Source: Armatimonadaceae bacterium
GTDB lineage: Bacteria > Armatimonadota > Armatimonadia > Armatimonadales > Armatimonadaceae
DNA length: 64,000 bases
Reading direction: 5' to 3'
Assembly: GCA_030447685.1 (NCBI GenBank)
Contig: JAUJOK010000011.1
Coordinates: forward strand, 1 to 64,000
Part shown: in pieces, positions 1 to 56,194 of the stretch
Layout of the letters: each line of letters opens with the position of its first letter
Position numbering within the stretch: the stretch's first letter is position 1
Made by a program: the position numbers and the translations under genes
Notes under the pieces: generated by a model
The model's database searches: none
What the model was told of the DNA's origin: nothing
The model's input: the letters and a program-made list of their open reading frames with translations, nothing else

Positions 1-413
1 GCCGACGTCAACGCCCTTCGCCAGAAGCGCGCGCAGTTCGTTGAGCAGGCGTTCGCCGGCTTCGGAGAAGTTCGGCGTGTCGGCCGACGCGCCCGCCGCG
101 GCTTGTTGACGGGCGTGTTCCGCGGCGTCGGCCAAGGCATGAGTCTTCAGCAGCCGCGGTTCAGGTGCTCCGGGAACCGCGTGACGCCGCGCACCAGCGC
201 CCGCGCGCCCGCGACGGTATCGTGTACGAGCCCGAAAACCCCGACCGAGATCCCCATCAAGAACGAGTTGATCCGCTGCGCCGCCTGTCGCCACGACTGC
301 GGGTCGGGGTCGCTCGGCGGCGATGGGCGGAGCGACGTGCGAAGCGCGTAGGCATCGACTTGGATGCCGGCCGGTTCCCGTTCCGGCTCGCCCGGAGGGG
401 CCTGCCCGCTCAC
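1..413 (-). CDS. Hypothetical protein, partial, probably frameshifted
   Basis: I do not recognise this protein. A GTG start overlaps the stop of the upstream dehydratase gene as GTGA, which suggests translational coupling. The first frame encodes 88 residues, including the stretch RINSFLMGISVGVFGLVHD, and stops at 147. A different frame then stays open to the window edge and encodes an alanine-rich, helix-forming stretch (LADAAEHARQQAAAGASAD, then LLNELRALLAKGVDVG). A one-base shift near position 175-185 would join the two frames into one longer protein running off the window. The alternative is an 88-residue protein at 147-413 and an unrelated gene beyond it. No domain or signal is recognisable. 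Confidence 0.35.
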
Positions 414-1564: not shown

Positions 1565-1714
1565 TGAACATTCCCCCTGCGCCCCAGTTTCGCCATGCAC
1601 TGGTTCGATGCCTGCGTAAGAGGAAGAAGCCAGGCCCGAAAACAGGGCATTGCTTACTTTATATTGAACCAAACGATAATTCTAAAAATACCGAACTGGC
1701 ATACGAGGAAACGA

Positions 1715-2152
1715 ATGGATAAAGACGAGCAGAGAGAATTCGACGCCTATATTCGGGGAGAAAACTGGGGTGCAGTGCCTGATTCTTTCACTGACGTGGA
1801 AGGCGCAGGATTGCAGATCAAATTAACGGAAGACGCTGATATTCCCGTCCTCAAGCTGCGGGGTAAAGTTGACCTGCACACAACCCACTTACTCAATAGG
1901 ACGTTTCGTACCTTGGCGCGGTCAGGTCGTTACCAGGTGATTGTGGACTGTCAAGACCTCGAACAACTGGATGTCGCAGGGCTGGGTGTTATGGTTGAAG
2001 CGGTTCGGCACTTACGGATACGCCATGGGGGAATTTACCTCGCGCAGCCAAATCAATTTGTACGCAATTCCTTGCGGATGACCAGGCTGAACAAAGTTCT
2101 CCCAATTGCGGATACCATAGAAGCTGCAAAGATTATGGCGAGAACAGCCTGA
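1715..2152 (+). CDS. STAS-domain protein (anti-anti-sigma-like)
   Basis: A 145-residue protein whose residues from about 35 to the end form a STAS domain, as in SpoIIAA and RsbV. It has the beta strand IPVLKLRGKVDLHTTHLL, then VIVDCQDLEQLDVAGLGVMV and a C-terminal helix. STAS antagonists bind anti-sigma kinases and are switched by phosphorylation of a Ser or Thr in a D-S-S/T-G motif. Here the motif reads D-V-A-G, so the phosphorylatable residue is absent. It may be locked in one state or belong to another STAS class, such as a stressosome-like part. The start ATG at 1715 follows GAGGAAACGA; an in-frame ATG 40 codons upstream has no support. The gene is divergent from the mannonate dehydratase gene. 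Confidence 0.75.
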   Translation: MDKDEQREFDAYIRGENWGAVPDSFTDVEGAGLQIKLTEDADIPVLKLRGKVDLHTTHLLNRTFRTLARSGRYQVIVDCQDLEQLDVAGLGVMVEAVRHLRIRHGGIYLAQPNQFVRNSLRMTRLNKVLPIADTIEAAKIMARTA

Positions 2153-2241
2153 CCACATAGTTCCTGCCGGGACAGGTAACGATGAGGAAATACCGCTGCC
2201 GCTGTCTGATGAAAGCGCAATATAAAGAGATGGAAACTACG

Positions 2242-2964
2242 ATGACACGAGTGATCGCGCACCGGGGCGCTTCCGCCTACGCGCCGGAAAACACCCTTGC
2301 CGCTTTTATACTTGCCGTAGAACAGGAAGCCAATATGGTGGAACTGGACGTTCAGCGCACGGCGGATGGCGCGCTGGTCGTCTTCCACGATGCCACCACA
2401 CAGCGATGGAACGGGCAGCCGCGTCCCGTCGCCGAGTGCTCGCTGACTGATTTGCGCACACTCGATATCGGCGGGGAGCGTATCGCGCTGCTGGCCGAGG
2501 TGTGCGCGCTGGCGCGGGAGCGCGGCATCGGCATGAACGTCGAAATCAAAGCGGCGGGAATCGGCGCAGAGGTCGCGCGCCTGCTCCATGAGGAGAAAGT
2601 GACGGATCGCACCCTCATCTCCTCGTTCCTGCCCGACGCGCTGGGCGAGATCGCGCGGGCGGATTCACGCCTGCCGCGCGGCGTTTTGATGGGCGCGCGT
2701 GCCTGCCCGGCGGACGCGCCGGAAGACTGGCCGATCCCGGCGCTGCGAGAAGCGGGCGCGGCGGCCTGGCATCCGCCGCACCAGATGCCACTGCTCGCGC
2801 AGCTTCTTCCCCGTGTCCGCGCGGCAGGCTTTCAGGTCAACGTCTGGACAGTCAACGACCCGGCTTTGATGCGGGAACTGGCGCTGCTGGGCGCGGACGG
2901 CATCATCACCGACAAACCCGATGTGCTGCGCGGCGTTCTGGACGAAATAACGCGAGAAGAGTAG
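2242..2964 (+). CDS. Glycerophosphodiester phosphodiesterase
   Basis: This is a soluble GDPD of the GlpQ/UgpQ type, 240 residues, hydrolysing glycerophosphodiesters to glycerol-3-phosphate and an alcohol. The signature is present in order: [13 protein letters not shown] near the N-terminus (catalytic His), [11 protein letters not shown] and VVFHDAT (metal ligands and second His), VEIKAA in the middle, and VNVWTVND followed by [11 protein letters not shown] at the end. Length and order match cytoplasmic family members and there is no signal peptide. I placed the start at the ATG immediately before [10 protein letters not shown]; an ATG four codons upstream is equally readable. The broken DUF1080 gene converges on its 3' end with no terminator between them. 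Confidence 0.9.
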
Positions 2965-3740
2965 CCGAAGGTATCGGGGCACGACCCAGATGTTGCGATA
3001 GCGCACCGGGTTGCCGTGGTCCTGCAAAAGAATCGGCCCTTCGCCGGTGGAAGGCGCTCCCATCCCGGCCCGCGTGTCGGCCTTGATCTCGAAGTTATCG
3101 TGGATTTTGACGCCGTTGTGAATCACGGTAATGCGCGGCCTCTCCGCTACTTTGCCCTTTGCATCGAAGCGGGGCGCGCGGAACCAGATGTCGTAGGTCT
3201 GCCAGGTGCCCGGCGGCAGGGTCGCATTCACACGCGGCGCGGCCTGGCTGTAAATCGCGCCGCACTCGTCCTGGCGCAATGGGCGTCCCGGCGGGTTTAT
3301 GGCCGGGCCGTGGTGGAATCCAGCACCTGCACTTCATAGCTGCCCATCAGATAAACACCGGAGTTGCCGCGCCCTGTCCCGTCTGGTCAGGCATGGACGG
3401 CACGTTGAACTCGACATGGAGGCGGCAGTCGCGGAACTTCTGCCGGGTCATAATATCGCCGCCGCCCACGACCGCCGCACCGTCCTCAATGCGCCACGAG
3501 GCCGGGCCGCCGCCGTCGCGCTTCTGCCACGCGGACAGATCCTTGCCGTCGAAAAGAACGATTGCGCCTGCCGGTCGCCGCGCGGAGAGAGACCTGCCGG
3601 GGAATATCGCGCACCGGAACTGCCGCGCCGCCGGTGCTTCCCGTTCCCTGCGCTAACGATGCCGCCGTGACTGCGCCGACGCTAAAGAAAGCCGCGACGG
3701 CAGCCGCTGCCCGGCTTGGGTTTTTCAAAAACTGCGTCAT
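2965..3740 (-). pseudogene. DUF1080 / 3-keto-disaccharide hydrolase, frameshifted
   Basis: Pieces of one secreted DUF1080 protein lie in successive frames. It starts MTQFLKNPSRAAAAVAAFFS, a signal peptide, at 3740. After a shift near 3590 comes LFDGKDLSAWQKRDGGG, SWRIEDGAAVVGGGDI, and FRDCRLHVEFNVP. After further shifts near 3370 and 3295 comes [20 protein letters not shown] and [17 protein letters not shown]. That order is the normal DUF1080 beta-sandwich (PF06439, 3-keto-disaccharide hydrolase). An in-frame stop (TAA after STTARP) near 3300 also fits a shifted reading. The last frame runs past the conserved end into the 3' part of the glycerophosphodiesterase gene. Given how common one-base shifts are in this window, the living gene may be intact. 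Confidence 0.75.
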
Positions 3741-3830
3741 TTGCCTGTCCTGCTCGATTGCCCCGCCAAAAAGGGGTTAGTTAATTTTCGTTTCGTCACC
3801 TTTGCCGGATTTCCCTGCGTTTTCGCCCCC

Positions 3831-3852
3831 CTGCCCCCATTATTGGGGGGCA
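3831..3852. repeat. Short palindrome, CCCCCATTATTGGGGG family
   Basis: A near-perfect inverted repeat (CTGCCCCC, an ATTATT centre, then GGGGGGCAG) lies at the very end of the SDR gene. The same core occurs at about 8031, 8970, 45556, 45690 and 52467, so it is a dispersed element and not a gene-specific hairpin. It could fold into a strong hairpin and act as a terminator for the SDR transcript, but no T-run follows. Confidence 0.7.
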
Positions 3853-4578
3853 GGCGGCAGCGACGCCATGGCACGATAGTGCCCCGGAGATTCCCTTCGG
3901 GGGATTTCGTCCACGGAGGCATCCGATGGGGCTTCCAGCGCGTAGCGTATCTGCCTCGGCGACACGAACGGCGCTGAGCATATCTTCGCGAGGCGGGCCA
4001 TTCTGGATAACATCCCAGAAAGGGGTATCGGTGGAGCCGGGCAGAACGGCGGTAACACGGATGCCCTCGCGCCGCACCTCTTCAGCCAGCGATTTGGTCA
4101 GGCCATATGCGCCCCACTTGGACGCGCAGTAGGCCGCCGAAAAGGGGAACGCCACTTTGGAGGCGACGGAAAGAATGTTCACCAGATGGCCGGAGCGCCG
4201 GGGCAGCATCACCTTCAGGGCTTCGCGGCAGGTAAGGTACGTGCCGGTCAGGTTCGCGCCGATCTGGGCGTTCCAGTCGGCCAGCGTGGACTCCGCCGTC
4301 GGGCCGAACGAGCCGACACCGGCAGCGCAGACGACCGCATCGAGACGATCAAACCGCTGCACTGTGGCCGTGACCACTCCGGTGACATCGGCCTCGGAGG
4401 TGACATCACAGGCGACCGCAAGATGCGTTTCCCCCGTCTCCTGCGCCAGTTCGTCCAGCGCTGCCTGACTGCGCGCGGCAAGCACCAGACGCCACCCGCC
4501 AGCGGACAACGCTAACGCCGTCGCGCGTCCGATGCCGCGACTGGCTCCGGTAATCAGGCAGACGCGATTTTCTTCCAT
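3840..4578 (-). CDS. Short-chain dehydrogenase/reductase (frameshifted 3' end)
   Basis: A classical NAD(P)-dependent SDR. The cofactor motif is TGASRGIG near residue 10, the structural motif is CAAGVG, and the catalytic Tyr and Lys are in YCASK within FSAAYCASKWGAYGL. The substrate is unknown; oxidation or reduction of a small alcohol or ketone is all the family implies. The frame is conserved to VRVAEA and then must shift near 3955 to continue IRYALEAPSDASVDEIP and stop at 3840; the unshifted frame instead runs into repeat-like sequence to 3796. It starts 9 bases after the folE stop on the same strand, so the two probably share a transcript. Some SDRs beside folE act on pterins, but the sequence does not show that here. 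Confidence 0.8.
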
Positions 4579-4587
4579 AACTTCTGC

Positions 4588-5151
4588 CTAAAACTGCATG
4601 TTGGGCGTGCGGCTGATAAGCTGCATGAACTCGTCGCGGGTGCGCCGGTCTTCGCGGAACACGCCCATCACATGGGATGCCGTCACCAGTGAATTCTGCT
4701 TTTCGACACCGCGCATCAGCATGCACATATGCTTGGCTTCCGTCACGACGGCGACGCCGCGTGGGGCGAGCGCCTCCTGCATGGCCTGCGCGACCTCGAT
4801 GGTCAGCCGCTCCTGCACCTGAAGACGGCGCGCGAACATATCTACGATACGCGCCACTTTCGATATGCCGACGATCTTGCCGTTTGGTATATAGCCGACA
4901 TGCGCCCGGCCATAGAAGGGAAGAAGATGGTGTTCGCAGAGGCTGTAGAACTCGATATCGCGAACAATCACCATATCGTCGTAGTCTTCCTCGAAGACGG
5001 CGTTGTTGAGCAGTTCCTTGAGGTCCTGTTGATAGCCTCTGGTCAGGAACTTCATCGCTTCCTGGGCGCGGTAGGGAGTACGCAGAAGCCCCTCGCGCTC
5101 CGGGTCCTCGCCGATCTCTTTCAGAATTTCCCGATAGTGTTCTTGCAGCAT
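4588..5151 (-). CDS. folE: GTP cyclohydrolase I
   Basis: FolE converts GTP to 7,8-dihydroneopterin triphosphate, the first step of tetrahydrofolate and of queuosine/7-deazaguanine synthesis. The protein is 187 residues, the usual length. Zinc ligands and catalytic residues are visible in [12 protein letters not shown] (Cys and His) and in [12 protein letters not shown] (second Cys). The substrate-binding regions [15 protein letters not shown] and QVQERLT are also present. It is followed on the same strand by an SDR, and the QueD gene lies upstream across a 160-base palindromic repeat. FolE supplies the substrate of QueD, and queE is about 40 kb away in this window, so the pathway is at least partly present. 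Confidence 0.96.
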
Positions 5152-5190
5152 CCGATGGTTACTCTTTCTACTGTTTTAGGGCCTTTCGGC

Positions 5191-5353
5191 CTCTCCCCCC
5201 TGTCCCCTCTCCTAAAGGAAAGCGGGAGCTATAGACACAAGCGCGATTTGCTTCGTGCCTGCCTTTCGAATCGGGCAGAGCCATCATGCGAAGCAGAAGC
5301 TGAAATCGCAACTGGCCCCCCTTCCCTTTAGGGGAGGGGGCAGGGGGGAGAGG
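5191..5353. repeat. Palindromic repeat, CTCTCCCCCCTGTCCCCTCTCC family
   Basis: The two ends are inverted copies: the left reads CTCTCCCCCCTGTCCCCTCT and CCTAAAGGAAAG, the right CTTCCCTTTAGGGG then CAGGGGGGAGAGG. The interior of about 100 bases is not conserved between copies. Related copies are at 30918-31119 and a short one at 44284-44326. The right end overlaps the last codons of the QueD gene and appears to supply its C-terminal tail. Confidence 0.8.
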
Positions 5354-6191
5354 TCGCCCCGTAATACTCGAAATAGTTGCGGTCCGTTTCCTTGACGACG
5401 ACGCGGTACAGGCGCGCGGGGGCCGGAATCTTGTTCTCCAGATGTTCCCAGATCACGCGCGTCAGGTTTTCGCTGGTCGGATTGATGGCGGCGAAATCCG
5501 GCATGTCCTCGTTGAGATGCTTGTGGTCGAAACGGCCCATGATCTCGCGCTCCAGAACCGCATCCAGCGCGGCAAGATCGATGAGCATCCCCGTCACCGG
5601 GTCCGGCTCGCCCGCCACCGTCACCTCCACACCGTAGTTGTGGCCGTGGCCGTGCGGGTTGTTGCACTTGCCGAACAGCGCGCAGTTCTCGTCATCGGAC
5701 AGACCGGGCGCATGGAGGCGGTGCGAGGCGGCGAAATCAAGCGAGCGGGTCAGTGCAAGCATAGCCTGAGGGTTCTCCAGATACAGCGTGGCCCACAGCG
5801 TCGGCGACTCCCAGACGGTGACGGGGGTGAGCCGGGCGGCGGGTTCGCGAAAATGGGCCGCGAACTGCTCGGCGGCGAAACGGGCGATGTTTTCCAGCGT
5901 CGGCGGCGTGTCGGCGAAGTGGGGGACTTCATAGGTCAGATGCTTGTCGGCAAGCGGCCCGGTGACGGACTGCTTGAGCGCGCGGTCCACATCGACGATA
6001 TTCACGACCATGCCCGTGCGTTCGTCCACCGCGCCCGCAACGGTCACTTCGACGATGTAGTTGTGCCCGTGCCCCCAGCGCGAGGCCCACGCCCCGAACA
6101 GCCGCCGGTTTTCTTCATCGGTTTTATGCGGGAACCAGTAGGCATGCGCCGCCGAAAAGGCCGCGCGCCGCCGCAGGTACATTGTCGCCAT
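5328..6191 (-). CDS. queD: Tandem-domain 6-carboxytetrahydropterin synthase (QueD-like)
   Basis: The 287-residue protein is two fused PTPS/QueD domains. Domain 2 (about 150-280) has everything needed: zinc His in FAASHRL, His182 and His184 in HGHGHNY, catalytic Cys176 in FGKCNNPH, DHKHLN, and the pterin-binding Glu in VVVKETD. Domain 1 (1-145) keeps the zinc ligands (FSAAHAY, GHGHNY), DKHLTY and VWES, but the position of the catalytic Cys is Trp35 (FGAWASRWGHGH). Domain 1 is therefore probably structural or altered in chemistry. QueD turns dihydroneopterin triphosphate from FolE into 6-carboxytetrahydropterin for QueE. The last seven residues (SPPCPLP) come from the adjoining repeat. I chose the ATG at 6191, preceded by GAAGGGAAC. 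Confidence 0.88.
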   Translation of the reverse strand: MATMYLRRRAAFSAAHAYWFPHKTDEENRRLFGAWASRWGHGHNYIVEVTVAGAVDERTGMVVNIVDVDRALKQSVTGPLADKHLTYEVPHFADTPPTLENIARFAAEQFAAHFREPAARLTPVTVWESPTLWATLYLENPQAMLALTRSLDFAASHRLHAPGLSDDENCALFGKCNNPHGHGHNYGVEVTVAGEPDPVTGMLIDLAALDAVLEREIMGRFDHKHLNEDMPDFAAINPTSENLTRVIWEHLENKIPAPARLYRVVVKETDRNYFEYYGATSPPCPLP

Positions 6192-9906: not shown

Positions 9907-11045
9907 TTATCTCCGGTTTGCCCTCACCCCCAGCCCCTCTCCCACGCTGCGGGAGAGGGAGTCGGATTCGTAACGGCGATTCTTCCTCCCCTCTCCCCCA
10001 AGCTGGGAGAGGGGGCCGGGGGTGAGGGCTCTCCTGCCCCGCGCCCACACATAGCCCATTAAAGAAAACAGCGTCACCGCCTGAAGCACCAGAACCAGCA
10101 CGGACGAAACGCCCGCCAGACGCTGTATTGCCGATGATCCCGCCGTCAGTGCTCCAAAGAATAACGCCGACGGCACCACTCCGAGCGGCGACAGGTTGGC
10201 AAGCAGCGCGACGGCAATCGCCGTGTAGCCGTAGCCCGCTGAATAGTTGTCGCTCAGCAGGTAGGTTACGCCGCTGATCTGGATCGCCCCCGCCAGCCCC
10301 GAAAGCGCCCCGGAAAGCAGGAACGCAATCGCCTGCGTCCGGGCCGGGGAGATGCCCGCCGCCTCCGCCGCCTCCGGCCCCGCCCCGACCGCGCGCAGGG
10401 CGAATCCGCCTGCCGTCCATCTCAGGTAGAACCAGACGGCGGCGACCAGGAAAAGCGCCAGGAGGACACCCGCATGCAGGCGTGTGGCCGGGAGCAGCAG
10501 GACCAGACGCGCGCGGGAACGGCTATCGTATCCGACTGGGGAAAGTCGCGGGCAGCCTCCTGAAGCGGGCCGCGCACCATCCAGGCGACCATTTGCAGCG
10601 CGACGAAGTTGAGCAGAAGCGTCGAAAGCACTTCCTGAACGCCCCGGTATATCTTCAGCAGCGCGGCGATTCCCGCCCAGGCCGCGCCCGCCGCCGCGCC
10701 CGCCAGCAGCGCCAGGGGCAGATGCAGCACGGCAGCAGGAGCAAGGCGCGTTCCCGCCCACGCAGCCGCGACAGCGCCCATCAATAACTGTCCCTCCGCA
10801 CCGATGTTGAATAACCGGCAGCGGAACGCGAGCGTGACCGCCAGCCCGGTTAAGAGGAGCGGTGCGGTCTGCACCAGCGTCTCGGACAGGTTATAGGCGG
10901 ACCCGAATGCCCCCTCAGCCAGCGCCCGCGCCACCACCGGCGGCGATCCGCCCGCCACGCGCACCACCAGCGAAAGAGACGCCAGGCCCAGCGCCACGAA
11001 GAGCAGCAGCAGCGCCGCGTCACGCAGAAGGTTTCGCACGCTCAC
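9907..11045 (-). CDS. ABC transporter permease, BMP/nucleoside type (frameshifted)
   Basis: First permease of the importer. The N-terminal frame has AYNLSETLVQTAPLLLTGLA, FRCRLFNIGAEGQLLMG and GVQEVLSTLLLNFVALQMVA, all diagnostic for this permease family (YufP/NupP). Near 10525 the frame must shift by one base, after which the family pattern resumes with GAGPEAAEAAGISPARTQAI, ISGVTYLLSDNYSAGYGYTA and SALFFGALTAGSSAIQRLAG. The GTG at 11045 overlaps the ATPase 3' end and is the likely start; an ATG at 11072 is the alternative. The last 40 residues (from ALTPGPLSQ) are encoded by the palindromic repeat at 9921-10028. The single shift inside an otherwise intact gene looks like a sequence error. 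Confidence 0.85.
9921..10028. repeat. REP-like palindrome, CCCTCACCCC...GGGGTGAGGG
   Basis: Inverted ends CCCTCACCCCCAGCCCCTCT and GGGGGCCGGGGGTGAGGG bracket a paired inner set (GGGAGAGGGAG / CTCCCCTCTCCC). It belongs to the same family as 11806-11955 and 51039-51229, and a partial copy occurs near 45582-45640. Here it spans the gap between the two permease genes and forms the C-terminal codons of the upstream one. Confidence 0.85.
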
Positions 11046-12699
11046 CGCCGCCGCCGTTGCCACCGCCGCCACCCATCAGCAGGCCGATCTGTTCGCGGGG
11101 CGCAGTGGGGGCGATCACGCCGGAAAACGCGCCCTCATACATCACCGCGACCCGGTCGGATAAAGCAAGCACCTCGTCCAGTTCCGTAGACAGGAGGACG
11201 ATAGCCGCGCCCTGGTTTCGCGCTTCGCGCAGCGCCTCATGGACAAACCCCGTCGCCCCCACATCCAGCCCGCGTGTGGGATTGACCGCCACCACCACGC
11301 GCGGATTCCCGGACAGCGCGCGGGCAATAATCAGCTTCTGCTGATTACCGCCGGACAGCGCGCGGGCGGGCACCTGCGGCCCGCTTGCGCGAATATCATA
11401 GTGCCGGATAAGCTCCCCCGCACGGCGATGCAGGCGCGGCCAGAGCAGCAGCGGCCCCCGCCGGTAGTCCGGCGAATCGAACAGCCCGAGCGCCACATTT
11501 TCCGTGAGCGACAGCGGCAAAGCCAGACCCTGGCGGTGCCGGTCTGCGGGAATTACCGCAACGCCCGCCCGTCGGAACGTCGCCGCCTGGGCGCGCGGCG
11601 TTTCGCCGCCGATCCGTATCTCCCCCGCATCCGCCCGAACCAGCCCGCTCAAACAGGCGGCAAGCTCCGCCTGACCGTTGCCGTCCACGCCCGCGATACC
11701 GAAAATCTCCCCCGCCGCCACCGAAAACGTAATATCGCGCAGCCGGTCACGCCCGTTTCTGTCTTCACCCCCGGAGGGTCAGGTCCGTTACCTGGAGGAG
11801 GCTGGCCCTCACCCCCTGCCCCTCTCCCATGCTCCCGCTTCGCGGTGGGAGAAGGGTGCCTGTGGCAATGCCAACCTCTGCTCCGCGCGAAGCCGGGGTT
11901 GCTCTCGTGGCAGGCACCCCTCTCCCGCAGGGGGGAGAGGGGCAGGGGGTGAGGGTGGCGGAGACAGGAGCTTCCCGCCTACCATCGCCTCGGCCAGTCC
12001 CGCCGCGTCCGTTTCGCCGGTTGTGGTGCGGCGGACGACCTGACCCCGGCGCAGCACGGACACGCCCCCGGCCAGCGACAGCCCGTCCTGAAGCTTGAGC
12101 GAGATGAAAACGAGACCGCGTCCCTCGGCGGCGAGAGCGCGCAGCGTGGCGAAAAGCTCCGGGGTTTCGGTGGGGGACAGGACAGCCGTCGGCTCGTCGA
12201 AGATCAGGACACGCCCGGCTCCGCGCAGGGCTTTTAAAATCTCCACCCGCTGCTGTGTCCCGACCGGCAGATCACCGGCGGGCTGGCTCCAGGGGATACG
12301 CCACCCCAGCCGCTCCGCAATCGCCTGCGCCTCGGCAATCACAGCATCCACCGGGTAGGAAAGCGCACCGCCCTTGTCCGGCGATGCGCCCAGCAGCAGG
12401 TTTTCCCGCACGGAAAGGGGAGGCACGAGCAGAAAATGCTGATGCACCATGCCGATGCCCGCCGCGCTTGCATCCAAAGGCGAGCGAAACTGAACCGGCT
12501 GGCCCGCAAGCAGAATCTCACCGCTTGTCGGGCGCACCAGGCCGGACAGGATGTTCATGAGTGTGGACTTGCCCGCGCCGTTTTCGCCCAGAAGCGCGTG
12601 GATTTCGCCGGGCTGCACGTCAAAATCTACGCCGTGCAGCGCCGTAAACGCTCCGAAATGCTTGGTGATGTTCCGCGCGGCCAGCAGCGACGGCGTCAC
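11020..12699 (-). CDS. ABC transporter double ATPase, BMP/nucleoside type, interrupted by a repeat
   Basis: This is the twin-ATPase subunit of the importer. Domain 1 has Walker A GENGAGKST, a signature region LPVGTQQRVEILKAL and Walker B VLIFDEPTAVL. Domain 2 has the degenerate GVDGNGQAEL, ALSGGNQQKLIIARAL and NPTRGLDVGAT, the normal asymmetry for this family. Between the domains the linker AEAMVGGKLL is broken by a 150-base palindromic repeat whose translation ends in a stop at 11809. Past the repeat the linker resumes as LLQVTDLTLRG and, after a one-base shift near 11775, runs into DITFSVAAGEIFGIAGVDGN. Start is GTG just after the lipoprotein stop. Whether one protein or two half-proteins are made cannot be told from sequence. 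Confidence 0.85.
11806..11955. repeat. REP-like palindrome inside ABC ATPase linker
   Basis: Ends CCCTCACCCCCTGCCCCTCT and GAGGGGCAGGGGGTGAGGG are perfect inverted copies. The interior has a second inverted pair around GGGTGCCTG / CAGGCACCC and the phrase CGCGCGAAGCCGGGGTTG, which recurs in altered form in the copy at 51039-51229. The element is placed exactly between the two ATPase domains. Confidence 0.9.
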
Positions 12700-17967: not shown

Positions 17968-19197
17968 ATGATTAGCGAGAACACGAAGAACGACCTTTAC
18001 GATAACCTTCCGCTGACCTTCCCGCGCCGCAAAACGCGCGCCGTGCGTGTCGGCAATGTTACTATCGGTGCGGGCGCGCCGGTGGTGGTGCAGAGCATGA
18101 TTACCGAGGAGACGCGTAACGTGCAGGCGTGTGTGAAACAGATCATGCAGATGCACCGCGCCGGGGCCGAGATCGTGCGCGTCACCACGCCGACGCTGAT
18201 GGAGGCGCACTGTCTGGGCGAGATCAAGCAGGCGCTGCGCGCCCGGCTGGTGGACGTGCCGCTGGTGGCCGACGTGCACCATCAAGGCTCGGATATCGCC
18301 GTGGCCGTGGCGCAGTTCGTGGACAAGGTGCGTATCAACCCCGGCCTGTTCGTGTTCCGCAAGCCGCGTGGACGCGCCGAGGAGTACAGCGCGGACGAGG
18401 TCGCCGACGAGTTAGGCGCGATTGAGGAAAACCTGCTGCCCGTCATCCGGGTATGCCGCGAGCGCGACATCGCTATACGTATCGGCGTCAACCACGGAAG
18501 CCTCGCGGAGCGCCTGACGGTTATGCACGGCGACACGCCGGAGGGCATGGTCGAATCCGCGCTGGAATACATCCGCATCTGCGAAAAGCACGCCTACCGC
18601 AATATTGTGCTTTCGCTCAAGGCGTCGCGCGTGCCGGTTATGATCGCGGCCAACCGGCTGATGGTCAAGCGCATGGAGCAGGAGGGGATGGATTATCCGC
18701 TGCATCTGGGCGTCACCGAGGCGGGCGACGGCCAGTATGCGCGGGTCAAATCCACAGCGGGCATCGCGACGCTGCTTGCCGAGGGTATCGGCGACACGAT
18801 TCGCGTTTCGCTTGCCGAGGACCCGGTCAATGAGCTTCCGGTCTGTTATGAGATCCTGCAGGCGCTGGGCCTGCGCAAGACCCAGGTGGAGTTTATCGCC
18901 TGCCCCTCCTGCGGGCGCACCAAGTTCGACTTGCCGACCGTGCTGGGCCAGGTGCGCGCCGCCACCAGCCATCTGGTGGGTCTGGACATCGCGGTGATGG
19001 GCTGTATTGTTAACGGCCCCGGCGAGATGGCCGATGCCGACTACGGCTATGTGGGCAAGGCGGGCGGGATGATTACGCTGTACCGCAAGCGCGAGCCGAT
19101 CAAGACCGTGCCGCAGGAGCGCGGCGTCGAGGAGCTGGTAAGCCTGATTAAAGGCGACGGCAAATGGGCCGACGCGCCGCTATCCCATACCAACTGA
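17968..19197 (+). CDS. ispG: (E)-4-hydroxy-3-methylbut-2-enyl-diphosphate synthase
   Basis: IspG (GcpE) reduces methylerythritol cyclodiphosphate in the penultimate step of the MEP isoprenoid pathway and needs a [4Fe-4S] cluster. At 409 residues it is full length. The cluster ligands are Cys312 and Cys315 (CPSCGR) and Cys346 ([11 protein letters not shown]), with Glu353 close by. The TIM barrel is seen in [16 protein letters not shown] and [12 protein letters not shown]. The start ATG has GGGGGC upstream. The final 202 bases are repeated with about 97 percent identity at 21075-21279, beyond a 1.9-kb accessory insert. Confidence 0.97.
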
Positions 19198-19235: not shown

Positions 19236-19745
19236 CTATTTACAGTGAAGGGGTTTGGGGAGCACTACGTAGTTGTCGCCAACCGCGTCTGCCAATTGGG
19301 ACTGTAATGCCTTGAAGACAATTCGGGGCGCACTTGGTGGACGGCGCAAGCCTGTAATGCCCGCATGGCCTTCGGCACCGGGGCGCAAATCCGGTGTTCC
19401 GTCATCGAGAACTGCCTCATCCCAGACAACATCCAGTCGATGTCCATCCTGTATTATGGCTCGCACGACGGAAACACGCAGGCGTGCGATTAAACGATGA
19501 GTGCTTCCATTACCTACCAATGCACAAGCCTGCTCCTGCGTCGTCAAACCCTCCGCAAATACCGACAGCTTTGGAATGGGCTGCTCCTTGTCCCGGTTCG
19601 ACAGCTCGAATTGAAATGCGGCGCGGGTAATTGGTCGCCCTGGCTCCCAGTCCGGTGGAAGGCGGTTGGCTCGCAATACAAGTACCGCATCCGGCAGCGG
19701 CTCTTCCGGTGTGCCCCTCTGCAATCCCGTGGTGTCAGCGGACAA
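19236..19745 (-). CDS. Hypothetical protein, third gene of the TIGR04255 module
   Basis: Unrecognised 169-residue protein. It begins at TTG (SADTTGLQRGTPEEPLPDAV) overlapping the end of the preceding small gene by 11 bases, so translation is probably coupled. It contains AAFQFELSNRDKEQPIPKLS and VRAIIQDGHRLDVVWDEAVL, which look like a soluble alpha/beta fold, with no signal or membrane segment. It belongs to a three-gene, minus-strand, lower-GC module placed between ispG and a second copy of the ispG tail. Codon use is less GC-rich than in ispG next door. Confidence 0.55.
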   Translation of the reverse strand: MSADTTGLQRGTPEEPLPDAVLVLRANRLPPDWEPGRPITRAAFQFELSNRDKEQPIPKLSVFAEGLTTQEQACALVGNGSTHRLIARLRVSVVRAIIQDGHRLDVVWDEAVLDDGTPDLRPGAEGHAGITGLRRPPSAPRIVFKALQSQLADAVGDNYVVLPKPLHCK

Positions 19746-20125
19746 TGCGGAAGGCGTTCAGCGCAGTCAGAACCTCTTCCGACAGAGGAGCGAATGGAGC
19801 ACACTCCGCTTCCCAAACATCGCTCGTAATACGATTGCGGTAGAAGAATTCCAAGGGCCTGCCGACCGCGATCTCTACGTCGAAATGATGTGCTTCCCGA
19901 TCCCAGGTGAGTAAAACGCCGCCGTCCTCAAGAATATCCAGATACGGTACGCTGAGCAAGCCAGGAACATTGCCTTTGGCGCGGTTCCAGAAGTGCAGAA
20001 CATATTCTGCAAGCGCGGAATCGACAGATGTCTGTAAAACTTCGAGCAAACGAGCCTCCCGCTCCCGTTCCTTGACTCCGCGTCAGTTCGCTTTCATAGC
20101 GACAATGTAGTTCATCATTCGTCAT
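19735..20125 (-). CDS. Hypothetical protein, second gene of the TIGR04255 module (frameshifted)
   Basis: Unrecognised. The conserved-looking part reads LLEVLQTSVDSALAEYVLHF, WNRAKGNVPGLLSVPYLDIL, DGGVLLTWDREAHHFDVEIA and GRPLEFFYRNRITSDVWEAE, an alpha/beta domain of about 105 residues. A start at ATG 20125 (MTNDELHCRYESELT) followed by a one-base shift near 20075 gives VKEREREARLLEVL and a protein of about 130 residues. Without the shift the protein would start internally at 20049. The gene lies between the TIGR04255 gene and the 169-residue gene on the same strand and is probably part of the same unit. A partner or chaperone role is speculation. Confidence 0.5.
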
Positions 20126-20259
20126 GCTGAACACAGGAGTGGCAGTCCCAGAAAAGGTTGATGGTTTGACGGCAACGCTCATAATTTATCTCCAGGATAC
20201 CCGGAATGCCTGCGTGTGGCAACCGGTAGCTTATTGGAAGAGTTCCAAGGCAAGCGGTG

Positions 20260-20989
20260 TCAAACTCTCGAAAAGAGTTGATTGCGATATTGCCGCAGGC
20301 TATCCAATACGCTCCCCACGACGGGATCGTCCGGTACCAGATCAATGAATCGAAATGCATCAATGTCGAACAAAAGAGACAGCGTTTCTGCTTCAGGCGT
20401 ACGCGCGGCTCGCTCGCTAATATAACCGTGGCGGCCTGTCGGGGGATATTCGGGTCGGGCAGCACGAAACGCAGAAACAGGTCCGCAATTCCCTGCGGCA
20501 CTTTCGGTCCTAAACGCAGGAATGTTTGGAAGTAATCGTCAAAGTCACTCATCGGCAAGGGGATATTAATCCGGTTGACGCATCGCAGGCCGATTCGCTG
20601 GACCCGTGCCGGTTTGGTCTCAGAGCGAAACTGTTCCCATATAGGCCAAAATCGCTGGCGAAAGATGTCACCATTTTGATAAGGCGCAAGCTGGCTGAAT
20701 ACAAAGCCACCAGGAGTGATTTGCAGAATCCGCCGTCTGTCTGCGGAGGAGAGCTTGTATCCACCGAATCCGCTCGCAGCATTGAAGGACGGCGGGATTC
20801 CTTCCGCTGCTGGGGTAAAGCCCATCTCAAACTCAACAACGTTCAGCGCTTCGCGATTCGGAAGTTGTCGGCAACGGCTTCCTGCACTTGTTGCAGGGTT
20901 TCTGGAGTTATTCCTTCCGCAAAAATGGTGCGAAAGTCTACCACAGCCTCAACGATTGGCGCTCGCGCAAGTGTTGGATACTCCGTCAT
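20260..20989 (-). pseudogene. TIGR04255-family protein, two frameshifts
   Basis: Three consecutive frames together give a TIGR04255 protein of about 240 residues. The N-terminus reads MTEYPTLARAPIVEAVVDFR, with PETLQQVQEAVADNFRIAKR. After a shift near 20840 it continues FEMGFTPAAEGIPPSFNAA, GFVFSQLAPYQNGDIFRQRF, RVQRIGLRCVNRINIPLP and LDIDAF-type sequence. After a second shift near 20385 it ends SLLFDIDAFRFIDLVPDD and DSLRQYRNQLFSRV. The family is scattered patchily across bacteria and its function is unknown; patchy distribution fits an accessory or defence role. Either the gene is decaying or the sequence has two indels. The start is well placed 70 bases inside the module. Confidence 0.75.
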
Positions 20990-21074: not shown

Positions 21075-21279
21075 GATGGGCTGTATTGTTAACGGCCCCG
21101 GCGAGATGGCCGATGCCGACTACGGCTATGTGGGCAAGGCGGGCGGGATGATTACGCTGTACCGCAAGCGCGAGCCGATCAAGACCGTGCCGCAGGAGCG
21201 CGGCGTCGAGGAACTGGTAAGCCTGATTAAAGGCGACGGCAAATGGGCCGACGCGCCACTATTGTCTCATACCAACTGA
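21075..21279 (+). pseudogene. Duplicated 3' end of ispG
   Basis: Starting at GATGGGCTGTATTG this segment repeats the last 202 bases of ispG, encoding [11 protein letters not shown] through to the stop. Differences are a few synonymous bases and one extra codon near the end (DAPLLSHTN here, DAPLSHTN in the full gene). Sequence before the junction is unrelated to ispG. The fragment lacks two of the three cluster cysteines and cannot be functional alone. It marks the right edge of the 1.9-kb insert and is directly followed by the Gfo/Idh gene. Confidence 0.95.
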
Positions 21280-21309: not shown

Positions 21310-22365
21310 ATGCAGGGCCTTTTGAGGGTTGGCGTCATCGGAGCGGGGAATATGGGCGGCACGCACGCGCGCTGCTGGTCGCGCCTGCCGGGCGCGCAGG
21401 TCGTCGCCATTGCCGACATGCAGGCCGAAAAGGCGCAGGCGCTGGCCGCGCGCATTGCCGGAACTTCGGGCACGGACGGCATGCCGCAGGTGTTTTCCCG
21501 TGCCGAGGAGATGCTGAGCGTCCGTGAGATAGATATTGTCAGTGTCTGCGTTCCCACATCGGCGCATCGCGCGCTCACCGAAGCCGCCGCCACTGCGGGC
21601 AAGCATATCCTTTGCGAAAAGCCGATGGCGCTGACTCTGGAAGACTGCGACGCCATGATTTCTGCCGCCCAAAAAGCGGGCGTCGTTTTCACCATCGGTC
21701 AGGTCGTGCGCCACTTCCCGGAATATGCCCGTGCAAAGGCGCTCGTCGATTCGGGCGCGGTGGGCGCGCCCGCCGCCGTGCGCGTGCGCCGGGGCGGCGA
21801 CTTCCCCCGCACCGACACCGATTGGTACGCCGACCCGGCGCACAGCGGCGGCGTTATCTTCGACCTGATGGTCCACGACCTGGACTGGCTGCGCTGGTGC
21901 TTCGGCCCGGTGACACGCGTCTATGCCCGAGGTCTGACCGAACGGCTTGCCGCAGGGGAGTTGGATCATATCGACTATGCCCTGCTGACCCTGCGCCACG
22001 AGAGCGGCGTTATCAGCCATGCCGAGGGCACCTGGGCCGATCCGAGCGGATTTGCCACTGCCTTCGAGATTGTCGGGGACGGGGGAATGCTGGAGCACGA
22101 CTCACGCCGCACGGTGACGCTGACACAGGCGCTTCGGACGACGGAAAGCGGCGGGCGCAGCAGCGGCGGCGGCGTTACCGTGCCCCGCAGCCTGCTTGCT
22201 GACGATGATGACCCGTACTTCCGCCAGATCGAAAGCTTCGCCGGAACTGTCCGCAACGGAACACCGCTTATCGTCACTCCGGAAGAGGCGCGGGCCGCTG
22301 CTGCGATTGCCCTGGCCGCGCGCGAATCGCTGCGTACCGGCCAGGCCGTGACGGTGGAAGCCTGA
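21310..22365 (+). CDS. Gfo/Idh/MocA family oxidoreductase
   Basis: A 351-residue NAD(P)-dependent sugar or inositol oxidoreductase. The Rossmann motif is VGVIGAGNMGGTHARCW, the EKP motif carrying the catalytic Lys is HILCEKPMALT, and the C-terminal domain has GGVIFDLMVHDLDWLRWCFG with the conserved Asp and His. It starts at ATG 21310 after GGGGGAAGCT. The 3' end (PEEARAAAAIALAARESLRT, then GQAVTVEA) is partly repeated at 23057-23141, beyond a two-gene insert. The substrate is not predictable; family members act on myo-inositol, glucose-type sugars and their derivatives. Confidence 0.94.
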   Translation: MQGLLRVGVIGAGNMGGTHARCWSRLPGAQVVAIADMQAEKAQALAARIAGTSGTDGMPQVFSRAEEMLSVREIDIVSVCVPTSAHRALTEAAATAGKHILCEKPMALTLEDCDAMISAAQKAGVVFTIGQVVRHFPEYARAKALVDSGAVGAPAAVRVRRGGDFPRTDTDWYADPAHSGGVIFDLMVHDLDWLRWCFGPVTRVYARGLTERLAAGELDHIDYALLTLRHESGVISHAEGTWADPSGFATAFEIVGDGGMLEHDSRRTVTLTQALRTTESGGRSSGGGVTVPRSLLADDDDPYFRQIESFAGTVRNGTPLIVTPEEARAAAAIALAARESLRTGQAVTVEA

Positions 22366-22415
22366 TTCGCAGGGGCATACCTGAGGCGAATCTCTATGAA
22401 AACCGGAGGAAATCT

Positions 22416-22694
22416 ATGACGGTACGACAACCCCGCTACACTAAGGAAGAGTTTGCCCGGCGCGGCGAGGAAATATATGAGCGGCAAGTGCGCCCGCAGG
22501 TGGAAGAAGGCAACGCGGGCAGGATTGTCGCCATTGATATAGAAACGGGCACATTCGAGATTGCCGACGATACTCTAACGGCTTCCGACCGCCTTCTGGC
22601 GCGTAACCCGGATGCTCAGACATGGTTCGTCCGTGTCGGCCATCGCGGGGTTCATCGCTTCGGCCCTCGCTCTTTGCCGGAGAAGGAGGCGTGA
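22416..22694 (+). CDS. Small conserved hypothetical, antitoxin-like partner of aspartic protease
   Basis: A 92-residue protein, MTVRQPRYTKEEFARRGEEI, then ERQVRPQVEEGNAGRIVAID, IETGTFEIADDTLTASDRLL and FVRVGHRGVHRFGPRSLPEK. There is no named domain. An N-terminal helix followed by a small beta domain is reminiscent of antitoxin-like proteins. From memory, proteins of this type are found next to clan AA aspartic proteases in cyanobacteria and Chloroflexota. Its stop overlaps the GTG start of the protease as GTGA, so the two are translationally coupled. A good site (GGAGGAAATCT) precedes the start. Confidence 0.7.
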   Translation: MTVRQPRYTKEEFARRGEEIYERQVRPQVEEGNAGRIVAIDIETGTFEIADDTLTASDRLLARNPDAQTWFVRVGHRGVHRFGPRSLPEKEA

Positions 22695-23061
22695 TTACCG
22701 GCATCGTCAACGCCAACGCGAGGCCACCATACGCCTGATGCTGCGTGGCGCAAACGAACAGGAACACGAAGTTCAAGCGATTATCGACACGGGCTTTACC
22801 GGTTTTCTGACATTGCCTTCCACGCTTATCGATTCGCTCGGACTCGAATGGCATGGTCGTCAGCAGGCTATTCTTGGCGATGGCAGCCTGCGCCAGTTCG
22901 ATGTTTACGCAGCGACGGTACTCTGGGACGAGCAAGCCCGAACAGTGGAAACGGATGCCGCCGACACAGAACCACTTGTTGGCATGGGGCTTATCTATGG
23001 TTATGAACTGCGTATTCAGGCTGTGGACGGCGGGTTTGTCACTATTGAGGCGTTGCCCTGA
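22691..23061 (+). CDS. Clan AA retropepsin-like aspartic protease (frameshifted near start)
   Basis: The protein has the retroviral-type catalytic motif in VQAIIDTGFTGFLTLP (D-T-G), followed by LGLEWHGRQQAILGDGSLRQ and DTEPLVGMGLIYGYELRIQA. These are standard for small bacterial clan AA aspartic proteases of about 120 residues that dimerise. The GTG start overlaps the upstream gene and gives ITGIVNAN; a one-base shift near 22710 is needed to reach REATIRLMLRGANEQEHEV. Substrates of such proteins are unknown. The pair sits between a Gfo/Idh gene and a degraded second copy of that gene's 3' end. Confidence 0.78.
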
Positions 23062-23141
23062 GACCGGAAGAGGCGCGGGCTGTGTCCTGGCCGCGCGAAT
23101 CGCTGCGTACCGGCCAGGCCGTTGCCGTCGCCGAGTCGTAG
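23057..23141 (+). pseudogene. Degraded duplicate of the Gfo/Idh 3' end
   Basis: This stretch encodes PEEARAVSWPRESLRTGQAV followed by AVAES and a stop, clearly homologous to PEEARAAAAIALAARESLRT and GQAVTVEA at the end of the Gfo/Idh gene ending at 22365. CGGAAGAGGCGCGGGC and AATCGCTGCGTACCGGCCAG are identical in both; a short deletion and a different last few codons separate them. It begins right at the stop of the aspartic protease gene and marks the right edge of that insert. Confidence 0.88.
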
Positions 23142-23145
23142 AAAA

Positions 23146-23913
23146 TCAGCGCGCCGTCATTGTTCGCGCGCCCTGATAGGCTTTTATCCCGGCGGCAAGC
23201 GCTTCGGCCATCTTTTCCTGCCCCGTCGGTGAAGCGATAAAGCGGGCATCGCTCTTCTGGTTGATGAAGCACATCTCGATAAGCGCGGTGGGGACGCGCG
23301 AAAAGATCGAGCCGGTCAGAACGCCGCCCTGCTTGCCCCCCACAAACGTTGCGGCATCGGTTTTGATGGCGTTGCTTTGCAGGTGCCCCTGCAGGATCGG
23401 CTTCATCGCTGCGTTAAGAATATGGGCTGCCTGGCGGCTGGCTCGCTGCACGTTTCGCGGCGGGCCAGTGACGCCCCCTTTTCGGCCCGCGCGGTCGGGA
23501 TAGTACCAGGCGTAGCCGCGCCCGTTTCCCACGTCGCAGTGCAGGCGGATAAGCAAGGCGGCTCCCGCCTTATTTGCCGTTTCCGCCCGCTGCCGGTTGG
23601 TGACATACTGATTTACTGAGGTTTTGGTCAGTTTGTAAGCGATGCCCATCGCATCAAGGCGCTTCGCCAGTCGCTGCGCGACCTGCCAGTTCAGGCGGTT
23701 CTCCGACAGTCCGTGCGCCCTCGCCCCCGCCGACGTTTCGGAAGGGTGCCCCGGATCGATGCACACCAGGAACTTGCCGGGTGGCGGCGGCGGCGGCGCA
23801 GCAGCCAGAGAAGCGGCGGAAGTGCGGTTTTGCGCGGACGCGCGGGTGGAAGCCGGACAAACGGCTGCCGATACGGCGACGACAGCCGCGCCGATGACAA
23901 AACGTGCGTTCAT
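23146..23913 (-). CDS. N-acetylmuramoyl-L-alanine amidase
   Basis: A 255-residue secreted Amidase_3 (AmiC-type) enzyme that cleaves the lactyl-amide bond of peptidoglycan. A signal peptide (MNARFVIGAAVVAVSAAVCP) and a proline-rich linker (six or more Pro) precede the catalytic domain. Zinc and catalytic residues are visible in CIDPGHP (His), LSENRLNW (Glu), IRLHCDVG (His) and ALIEMCFIN (Glu). The ATG at 23913 was chosen because it opens the signal peptide; the open frame extends 62 codons further without sense. It is divergent from the second Gfo/Idh gene. It converges on the degraded Gfo/Idh tail. Confidence 0.92.
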   Translation of the reverse strand: MNARFVIGAAVVAVSAAVCPASTRASAQNRTSAASLAAAPPPPPPGKFLVCIDPGHPSETSAGARAHGLSENRLNWQVAQRLAKRLDAMGIAYKLTKTSVNQYVTNRQRAETANKAGAALLIRLHCDVGNGRGYAWYYPDRAGRKGGVTGPPRNVQRASRQAAHILNAAMKPILQGHLQSNAIKTDAATFVGGKQGGVLTGSIFSRVPTALIEMCFINQKSDARFIASPTGQEKMAEALAAGIKAYQGARTMTAR

Positions 23914-24060: not shown

Positions 24061-25044
24061 ATGGTCAAGATCGGTATTTTGTCGGTGGCGCACATGCATG
24101 TGAACGCCTACGCCGCCCAGATTAAAAGGCTGCCGGACGCGGAGTTAGTCGGTATCTGGGACGACAATGCGGAACGGCGTGCGCGTCAGGCCGGGCACTA
24201 CGGTGTGCCTCCTTTCGAAGACCCGGACGTGCTGCTTGCGGCCTGCGATGCGGTAGTGATCTGCGCGGAGAACGCGCGCCATCGGGCGCTGTGTGAGCGG
24301 GCGGCGGCGGCGGGAAAGCACGTTCTCTGCGAAAAGCCGCTTGCCACCACGCCCGAAGATGCCCGCGCGATGATAGACGCCTGCGACGCGGCGGGTGTGC
24401 AGTTGATGACGGCGTTTCCCACGCGCTTTTCGCCTGCGTTCCAGAATCTGCTTGCCGCTGTGCGAAACGGCGACCTGGGCGAAATCCTGGCGGTGCGCGG
24501 TACGAATCGGGGACGCAATCCGGGCGGATGGTTTGTGGACAAATCTCTCTCCGGCGGCGGCGCGGTCATGGATCACACCGTTCATGTGGCTGATCTGCTG
24601 CGCGTGCTGCTTTCGTCCGAGCCTGCCGAAGTCTATTGTGAGGCCGATAACCGCATCCTGCACGGCGATTTCGAGGATACGGGCTTTCTCGCCATTACCT
24701 TTGAGAACGGTGTCTTTGCGACGCTGGATGCATCCTGGTCACGCCCGAAGACCTTCCCCACCTGGGGCGATGTGACACTGGGCGTGACGGGCACGCAGGG
24801 GGTAATGGAACTGGATATGTTCGCCCAGGAATCGGTGCTCTACAGCGACGCGAACAGCCGCATCAGCTATCAGGGCTGGGGTTCGGACATCGATAAAGGC
24901 ATGGTCGCCGCCTTTGTCGGCGCTATCGCCGCCGGGACTCCGGTTCCCGTTACCGGCGTCGATGGTCTGCGGGCCGTGGAGGTAGTGGAAGCCGCCTATA
25001 AGAGCATCGCCCGGGCGCAGCCGGCAGCCGTACGTCATCTGTAG
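24061..25044 (+). CDS. Gfo/Idh/MocA family oxidoreductase
   Basis: A 327-residue sugar-type NAD(P)-dependent oxidoreductase, only distantly similar to the one at 21310. The N-terminal Rossmann region starts MVKIGILSVAHMHVNAYAAQ, where the usual GxGxxG is replaced by LSVAHMH, a pattern seen in one branch of the family. HVLCEKPLATTPEDA holds the catalytic Lys and GGAVMDHTVHVADLLRVLL the C-terminal Asp/His pair. AGGAGCGAACT precedes the ATG. A strong intrinsic terminator follows 20 bases after the stop, so it is probably a single-gene transcript. Confidence 0.93.
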   Translation: MVKIGILSVAHMHVNAYAAQIKRLPDAELVGIWDDNAERRARQAGHYGVPPFEDPDVLLAACDAVVICAENARHRALCERAAAAGKHVLCEKPLATTPEDARAMIDACDAAGVQLMTAFPTRFSPAFQNLLAAVRNGDLGEILAVRGTNRGRNPGGWFVDKSLSGGGAVMDHTVHVADLLRVLLSSEPAEVYCEADNRILHGDFEDTGFLAITFENGVFATLDASWSRPKTFPTWGDVTLGVTGTQGVMELDMFAQESVLYSDANSRISYQGWGSDIDKGMVAAFVGAIAAGTPVPVTGVDGLRAVEVVEAAYKSIARAQPAAVRHL

Positions 25045-36874: not shown

Positions 36875-37030
36875 GGCGCGTGTAAACGGCGTTGACAGTG
36901 TCGGCGGCGGCGTGTAGAATAAGAGGAAAATACGCCTACTCCGGCGAAACACAGACGACGAACAGCATCGGCGCGGCGCGGGGGCGCGAGTCCCTATCGG
37001 AAGCGACGAGGCAAAGAAAGGATACGTGCT

Positions 37031-37429
37031 ATGGCCCGCGTTCTGGTCGTGGACGACGAAATCAACATCGTCCGCCTTATCCAGGTGAACTTGGAGCGGC
37101 ACGGCTACCAGGTGGAGACCGCTAATAACGGTGTGCAGGCGCTTGCGAAGATTCGGGACAGCCGCCCGGATTTGCTGGTATCGGACGTGATGATGCCGGA
37201 GATGGACGGCTTCGAGCTGCTTGCCAACGTCCGGCGCGACCCGGCTCTGATGGACCTGCCGGTAATCATGCTTACCGCCAAAGCCCAGGATCGGGACGTT
37301 ATGGAAGGGTACAAGACGGGCGCAGACATGTACCTGACCAAGCCGTTCAACCCTGCCGAGCTTATCACCTTCGCCAAGCGCATTTTATCGTCGCATCGGG
37401 ACGGTGACGACGACCGCATCGAAATATAG
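37031..37429 (+). CDS. Single-domain response regulator (receiver 1)
   Basis: A 132-residue stand-alone CheY-like receiver. Acidic pocket VVDDEIN, phosphoacceptor Asp in LLVSDVMMPEMDG, Thr in IMLTAKAQ and Lys in LTKPFNPAEL are all present. No output domain follows, so it acts through protein contacts or as a phosphorelay step. AAAGGATACGTGCT precedes the start. It is strikingly similar in DNA to the receiver 120 bases downstream. No histidine kinase gene is adjacent. Confidence 0.95.
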   Translation: MARVLVVDDEINIVRLIQVNLERHGYQVETANNGVQALAKIRDSRPDLLVSDVMMPEMDGFELLANVRRDPALMDLPVIMLTAKAQDRDVMEGYKTGADMYLTKPFNPAELITFAKRILSSHRDGDDDRIEI

Positions 37430-37522: not shown

Positions 37523-37551
37523 GTCATTGGTGACAAAGAAAGGAGCACACG

Positions 37552-37944
37552 ATGTCTCGCGTTTTAGTGGTTGACGACGAGATTAGCATCGTTCGCCTTA
37601 TTCAGGTGAACTTGGAGCGGCACGGCTACCAGGTGGAGACCGCCAATAATGGTGTGGAGGCGCTCGAAAAGATTCGGCAGAAGCGGCCCGATCTTCTGGT
37701 ATCGGACGTAATGATGCCGGAGATGGACGGCTTCGAACTGCTGACGAGCATTCGGCGCGACCCGGCTCTGATGGACCTGCCGGTAATCATGCTTACCGCC
37801 AAAGCGCAGGACGCGGATGTGTTCAAAGGCTATCAGTTGCAGGCCGATATGTATCTGGCAAAGCCGTTCAATCCCGCTGAGCTTATCACCTTCGCCCGGC
37901 GCATTTTATCCTCCCACGATGACTACGGCGAAAAAGTGTACTGA
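37552..37944 (+). CDS. Single-domain response regulator (receiver 2)
   Basis: A 130-residue CheY-like receiver with VVDDEIS, phosphoacceptor Asp in LLVSDVMMPEMDG, Thr in IMLTAKAQ and Lys in LAKPFNPAEL. It has its own strong ribosome site (AAGAAAGGAGCACACG). It matches receiver 1 over nearly its whole length; differences cluster on helix 4 and at the C-terminus (DVFKGYQLQADMYLA versus DVMEGYKTGADMYLT), the surface that usually picks partners. The 3' end overlaps the MBL-domain gene convergently by about 20 bases. Confidence 0.95.
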   Translation: MSRVLVVDDEISIVRLIQVNLERHGYQVETANNGVEALEKIRQKRPDLLVSDVMMPEMDGFELLTSIRRDPALMDLPVIMLTAKAQDADVFKGYQLQADMYLAKPFNPAELITFARRILSSHDDYGEKVY

Positions 37945-55977: not shown

Positions 55978-56153
55978 GACTGCAAACCGTTTCGCCACAG
56001 CAAACCAGCAGCGCCGCTGCCACCACGGCAGCGAACACTACGCGCGCCTTCTGGCCGGATGCCGTCGCCTACCGCGAAGCGATTCAGAACCCCGCCGCCG
56101 CGCTGGCTGACCCGCAGCTAAGCAGGGCGCAGGTCGCGGTGGGGCGGCAATAA
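55974..56153 (+). pseudogene. Truncated first copy of the kinase 2 N-terminus
   Basis: The GTG start overlaps the kinase 1 stop (GTGA) and encodes MRLQTVSPQQTSSAAATTAA, then FWPDAVAYREAIQNPAAALA and DPQLSRAQVAVGRQ, identical to the start of kinase 2 apart from one residue. It stops after 59 codons where the sequence switches to GC-poor DNA (ATAACTATAAATTTTTATAT). It is the left copy of a tandem duplication of about 750 bases. Confidence 0.85.
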
Positions 56154-56194
56154 CTATAAATTTTTATATCCATAGCTGGATATTCACGGTATAC

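Follow-up and report, generated by a model that had tools for sequence, protein, structure and literature searches.

We analysed a stretch of 64,000 nucleotides from an Armatimonadaceae bacterium (contig JAUJOK010000011.1, positions 1 to 64,000), referred to below as the window. The locus under study consists of an intact Gfo/Idh/MocA oxidoreductase gene (Gfo), two small co-oriented genes behind it, and a degraded copy of the oxidoreductase 3' end on the far side of these two genes (Table 1). A match to the oxidoreductase at E 1e-60 or better was present in 33 of the 61 genomes searched, the genome of the window itself being counted. Comparison of the 64 kb with itself recovered the tail repeat at a BLAST E of 1.4e-11, which bears out the original prediction that the small pair lies between the gene and a degraded copy of its end. 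The two tails are identical at 58 of 59 aligned bases, with one substitution and 12 gap letters; an exact stretch of 31 bases (22319-22349 and 23092-23122) is common to both, and identity ends sharply, right past ...GCCGT. The displaced copy has its first base 2 bases past the stop codon of the protease, has lost 10 + 2 bases, and is broken in frame. It reaches its stop at about 23141, after ...GQAVAVAES, and the intact gene ends in ...GQAVTVEA; the same prediction had noted this difference in ending, and it is real.

Table 1. Features of the window and of the related loci described in the text
Feature	Position	Strand	Remarks
ispG tail, inner copy (module 1)	18996..19197	+	
Module 1, three ORFs	19236..20825	-	one ORF of the TIGR04255 family
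ispG tail, displaced copy	21075..21279	+	
Gfo/Idh/MocA oxidoreductase gene, host of insertion	21310..22365	+	PF01408 8.7e-31, PF22725, PF02894
Inner tail repeat copy, within intact Gfo/Idh gene	22279..22349	+	gene then ends TVEA, stop
Small first gene of pair	22416..22694	+	92 aa; conserved RGxxIYxxxIRxxVE...GKxxxIDxETGxYEI...RIG
Clan AA aspartic (retropepsin-like) protease	22690..23061	+	DTGF motif; TIGR03698 E 3e-15
Displaced degraded Gfo/Idh tail copy	23064..23141	+	homology 23064-23122
Amidase-like gene	23146-23913	-	
Second Gfo/Idh gene (Gfo2)	24061..25044	+	
DUF488-family gene, ATCC 29413 plasmid A (L333)	1431-2696		annotated hypothetical there, DUF488 in relatives
Short parE, ATCC 29413 plasmid A (L333)	3403-3516		
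Metabolic segment locus, UHCC 0870 plasmid 2 (L345)	1863-5801		
metH array, G034:C675 (L306)	1-4293		

The expected start of the protease, a GTG at 22691, overlaps the stop codon of the small gene, and its frame meets a stop; compared with its relatives, the protease thus has a frame break near codon 9. The start frame and the body frame disagree, and the window copy is thus either broken or mis-sequenced. The protein shares the DTGF motif and the retropepsin fold with TIGR03698 (clan_AA_DTGF), and NCBI gives its relatives that name, but in addition to the broken frame it scores 56.4 bits, just under the curated cut-off of 57.35, and it has as its usual partner an unnamed protein of ~90 residues. 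The protease of a relative models as a retropepsin (pLDDT 94.8), and the model matches the XMRV and HTLV-1 proteases and the Rickettsia protease APRc at E 2e-4 to 6e-4. The small protein matched no family in Pfam, NCBIfam or PADLOC, its model, of fair quality (pLDDT 85.5), found no PDB match below E 1, and neither gene of the pair matched a toxin or antitoxin family.

The pair resembles type II toxin-antitoxin units in having two small, co-oriented genes, usually overlapping by four bases, and in being sporadic and multi-copy, with 54 places in 16 of the 61 genomes and seven copies in the genome of the window. Since the small protein has no family or known fold, the term toxin-antitoxin-like is used here for the pair only as an analogy. 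A scan of contigs yielded 201 relatives of the pair, 80 of which were kept, from Latescibacterota, Chloroflexi, Cyanobacteria, Planctomycetota, Proteobacteria and other groups. Relatives of the protease also occur on eight cyanobacterial plasmid records, and ParDE adjoins the pair on plasmids; of 31 pattern matches in viral contigs, none was a relative. On pNSMS101 of Nostoc sp. MS1 (L332) the pair lies between the BREX genes pglZ and pglX. No description of the protease pair as such was found in a literature search spanning listings and few subscription papers.

In relatives of the window, protein-level adjacency places Gfo2 as the next neighbour of Gfo, without the pair. The two genes are adjacent in four relatives, overlapping or separated by a few bases in two (L221, L222) and within ~160 bases in the others (L219, L220), and they stand wider apart in a further two (L217, L218). 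The pair is therefore an insertion relative to the Gfo-Gfo2 order, and not a stable neighbour of the gene; in the window, the amidase-like gene also sits between Gfo and Gfo2. The original prediction had expected an alignment of Gfo/Idh orthologues to reveal which tail is native. The two tails are homologous to each other, but the orthologues single out neither: the ends of Gfo and ispG orthologues differ between genera, and the attempt to name a native tail for either gene in this way failed. The Gfo tail of the window has no close relative, and the relatives' Gfo genes end unlike both tails in the window.

A sister module bounded by tails of ispG lies just upstream and is equally real by self-comparison: the ispG tail copies are 97% identical and flank a module of 1.9 kb. 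About 140 nt of these copies are identical, and the differences, confined to the last third, are three synonymous substitutions plus an in-frame triplet. A second piece of ispG in another genome (G005) was considered as a further tail copy and rejected in favour of an intein-like insertion. The IspG of this family member (L231, G005:C3, ~2600-3500) seems to carry an intein after MGC and before IVNG, at a site ~10 nt from where the displaced ispG copy of the window begins. Searches of the whole genome of the window matched neither its Gfo tail nor its ispG tail elsewhere, two further matches lying inside the pair. No displaced gene tails besides these two were seen in 463 kb of this genome (476 predicted genes), a third candidate (L129) being a hairpin-like repeat, and the idea that such tails are a general feature of the genome was rejected.

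A survey of the contexts of the pair, as the original prediction had proposed, did recover flanking tail repeats. In our tight test, the upstream copy had to end no more than 250 nt from the cassette start and the downstream copy to start no more than 150 nt past the protease stop, with a score of at least 45 bits. Bracketing direct repeats were present at 6 of 48, 6 of 72 and 2 of 17 pair loci in three sets, the thresholds having been fixed after the first wide scan, so that only the last 17 loci were new. The first set came from the 54 places (2 with short flanks, 48 entering the test) and the second from the 80 contig loci (3 duplicates dropped, 2 short, 75 scanned, 72 entering). For random segments drawn from the first two sets of loci, the counts were 0/648 and 11/915. 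Pooled, this amounts to 14 of 137 pair loci against 11 of 1563 random segments (Fisher p 5e-10, segments of one locus being non-independent); the remaining 123 loci carry no bracket.

Manual sorting of the 14 bracketed loci showed that in seven the repeat is the coding tail of a neighbouring gene (the window, G034 metH, G017:C2, G017:C132, L158, L169 and G087). The arrangement thus recurs at unrelated genes in several phyla, namely Armatimonadota, Chloroflexota and Gammaproteobacteria. The host names Gfo and metH rest on Pfam matches; the other hosts, apart from the gene at L158, are presumably, judging by their motifs, an RNase J gene, a PEP-CTERM gene, an SGNH-like gene and a USP-domain gene. 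The brackets at the other seven loci are a terminator after the stop codon (G000:C46), a leader that we take to be that of purH (G006:C43), a tandem pair (L178), attC-like repeats (L200) and dispersed repeats (L167, L211, G074:C297). At L200 (JACQZQ010000015.1, an Acidobacteria contig) the flanking repeats are 84 bp long and present in four copies, one of which was folded and gives a long hairpin; we take them to be attC sites from their motif, and the pair there is apparently an integron cassette.

Beyond these loci, the wider scans gave gene-tail cases at G088:C21 and L205, and another is that of Trichormus variabilis ATCC 29413. Either orientation of the cassette is possible, since at L169, G088:C21 and L205 the host gene is convergent yet the displaced tail again lies beyond the cassette. 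Of the eight cyanobacterial plasmid records, five were examined and two of these have bracketing repeats (a gene tail in L333, which is the ATCC 29413 plasmid, and a 32-bp match in L330). The metH array of G034 consists of several copies of the methionine synthase tail (PF02965), with a ParE-type pair (PF05016), the protease pair and also coiled-coil genes set between them. Bracketing repeats were found at 2 of 48 VapBC loci (50 given, 2 too short), a frequency not significantly different from that of the protease pair (p 0.25); one is the coding tail of an SDR gene with its terminator and the other was unclassified. These VapBC brackets, together with the ParE-type pair in the metH array, led us to reject the view that brackets are exclusive to the protease pair. 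At the classified VapBC locus (G017:C394, L316) the SDR gene is convergent, with its tail and terminator recurring on the far side, and both arms of the terminator stem carry differences that apparently preserve pairing.

The ancestry of the two tails could be traced on plasmid A of ATCC 29413, a complete isolate sequence, in which a DUF488-family gene has behind it, in this order, the pair, a short parE together with parD, and a displaced tail of 143 nt. The protease pair abuts parE, which measures 114 nt there versus 291 in Nostoc NIES-3756. The latter has the DUF488-family gene, ParDE and the tail fragment, without the pair, and plasmid 1 of UHCC 0870 has the gene without either module or fragment. 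The inner tail is 88.8% identical to NIES-3756 and the displaced tail 90.2 and 90.9% identical to the UHCC genes, versus 85.3% between inner and displaced. In a tree, the inner tail groups with NIES-3756 and the displaced tail with UHCC 0870 (support 98/97), and a sister relationship of the two is rejected (AU p 0.016), in a test of 143 nt with few informative sites, most within 13 nt, and with groups named after the identities had been seen. Furthermore, the intact gene resembles UHCC between about -376 and -198 and mostly NIES thereafter, over its last ~200 nt (permutation p 0.001). Because the tails are not sisters and the ancestry switches within the last 200 nt of the gene, one tail came with foreign DNA; it is the gene end that arrived from outside, the old end standing beyond the module. 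The plasmids of ATCC 29413 and NIES-3756 share a ParDE segment with ~97% identity; the tail fragment beside it is less alike, and the DNA beyond the fragment has no match. On plasmid 2 of UHCC 0870, a 3.7-kb metabolic segment (SDR / acetoacetate decarboxylase / NHL) lies between the DUF488-family gene and its tail fragments, so the cargo need not be a toxin-antitoxin unit.

We consider it probable that the pair in the window is a small accessory cassette placed by recombination that used the 3' end of the Gfo/Idh gene as its anchor, with the other side joined non-homologously and the old tail left behind. The incoming DNA would have contained the end of a homologous Gfo/Idh gene, followed by the pair. 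On the left side, one crossover would have taken place inside the shared tail; on the right, the incoming end, directly past the protease stop, would have been attached to an upstream point of the resident tail, with no long homology between the two. The host gene would stay whole, with only its last few codons new, and the resident tail, pushed to the far side, would decay. A crossover inside a shared anchor, as in homology-facilitated illegitimate recombination, is indicated in ATCC 29413 by the switch near -198 nt, and the window offers only the sharp end of identity. We infer for the window a history like that of ATCC 29413, in which case TVEA, the inner end, would have come in and AVAES would be native. 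The original prediction had likewise taken the displaced tail as possibly the original one, with the incoming DNA having brought its own; this is paralleled in ATCC 29413 and weakly favoured by the codon-position bias described below, but in the window itself the relatives, ending in other ways, do not identify it. One point against recombination of this kind is that the displaced copy starts ~0-50 nt from the cassette end in most cases, which is closer than expected of a random non-homologous joint.

The same anatomy would result if a transposition-like or template-switching process copied 70-200 nt of the target in situ, yielding copies identical at birth of which the outer one then decayed. 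Although we regard this as unlikely overall, the near-identity of the Gfo copies and the ~140 identical nucleotides of the ispG copies favour it, and because the Gfo tails have no synonymous differences in their shared part, duplication followed by decay fits the window locus as well. A precedent exists in restriction-modification (RM) systems, whose insertion is described as duplicating around 100 bp of the target (PMC3874152). Against it, the ten coding tail pairs have 47 of their 76 substitutions at third codon positions (L205 left out; 48/80 with it), an excess with p 0.011 over the 0.467 expected under a rough model in which the outer copy is neutral in situ and the inner one under selection. 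Two metH copies, both displaced fragments and neither of them in an intact gene on the contig, still differ mainly at third positions (11/18), and the ATCC 29413 tails are not sisters.

Insertion with long target duplication was named for RM systems (Nobusato et al. 2000; Furuta et al. 2010, via PMC1643837, PMC3031569, PMC3874152, PMC2654758 and PMC4978471). The likeness lies in a small addiction-type unit without a transposase and in long, variable direct target repeats of ~100 bp. Long direct target repeats flank the insert here as well, and the ATCC 29413 case has an insert-free allele with one target copy (UHCC 0870 plasmid 1). The differences are that the cassette cargo here is not an RM system, that its position at gene 3' ends recurs, and that the non-sister copies in ATCC 29413 did not arise from one another, so one was brought in and not duplicated. 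A second parallel is provided by the T6SS effector-immunity modules of Vibrio cholerae, for which sequential displacement via homology-facilitated illegitimate recombination has been proposed (PMC5361080). There, upstream homology anchors a new module, which drives the older pieces downstream and gives arrays with displaced 3' ends, as here, but the displaced piece is the toxin gene itself, whereas at our loci an unrelated resident gene has its end displaced. Our literature search, across listings and few subscription papers, found none tying homology-facilitated illegitimate recombination to toxin-antitoxin units. What is added to these known systems is a non-RM pair that recurs at gene tails in several phyla, together with evidence, from one case, that the copies are not duplicates of each other.

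It is improbable that the gene tail serves as the attachment site of a site-specific cassette, acted on by a recombinase in trans as with integrase islands or integron cassettes. The cassette borders are tight, the insert supplies alternative gene ends, and the L200 pair is flanked by its four attC-like repeats. Phages and islands that integrate in gene 3' ends, such as e14 in icd, similarly give the gene a new end and displace the old one; here, however, there is neither an integrase nor a common attachment sequence. The 0.65-kb insert holds only the pair, without a recombinase or integrase, inspection revealed no evident sequence common to the tails of different host genes, and no attC-like repeat is among the repeats at the window. 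An assembly chimera of two strains is scarcely credible, for although the window belongs to a metagenome-assembled genome of 116 contigs (2.4% contamination) and draft assemblies supply most of the cases, the same anatomy occurs in complete isolate plasmids, and the cassette-to-tail junction has, on inspection, no shared word able to mislead an assembler.

Returning to recombination anchored in a gene end, its cargo, if addiction-like, may persist between direct repeats because its loss is punished. More speculatively, and with rather low expectation on our part, the tail copies might act as portable homology arms: homologous recombination would drop the pair into empty alleles, and each arrival would add a tail, building arrays such as that at metH, so that small selfish pairs could spread without a transposase, using ordinary gene ends as addresses. 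For the question of how tiny toxin-antitoxin-like units without a transposase spread between chromosomes, displaced gene tails provide a legible scar, since they mark the entry point and their ancestry tells which side came in, and a genome-wide scan for them would make the question of unit movement testable.

Additionally, the window contains other repeats. Two further direct repeats lie at 37012-37395 / 37534-37916 (82%) and 55410-56149 / 56191-56931 (90%), and long imperfect palindromes, some of them mutually similar, at 9920-10029, 11806-11955, 47920-48047 and 51036-51198.
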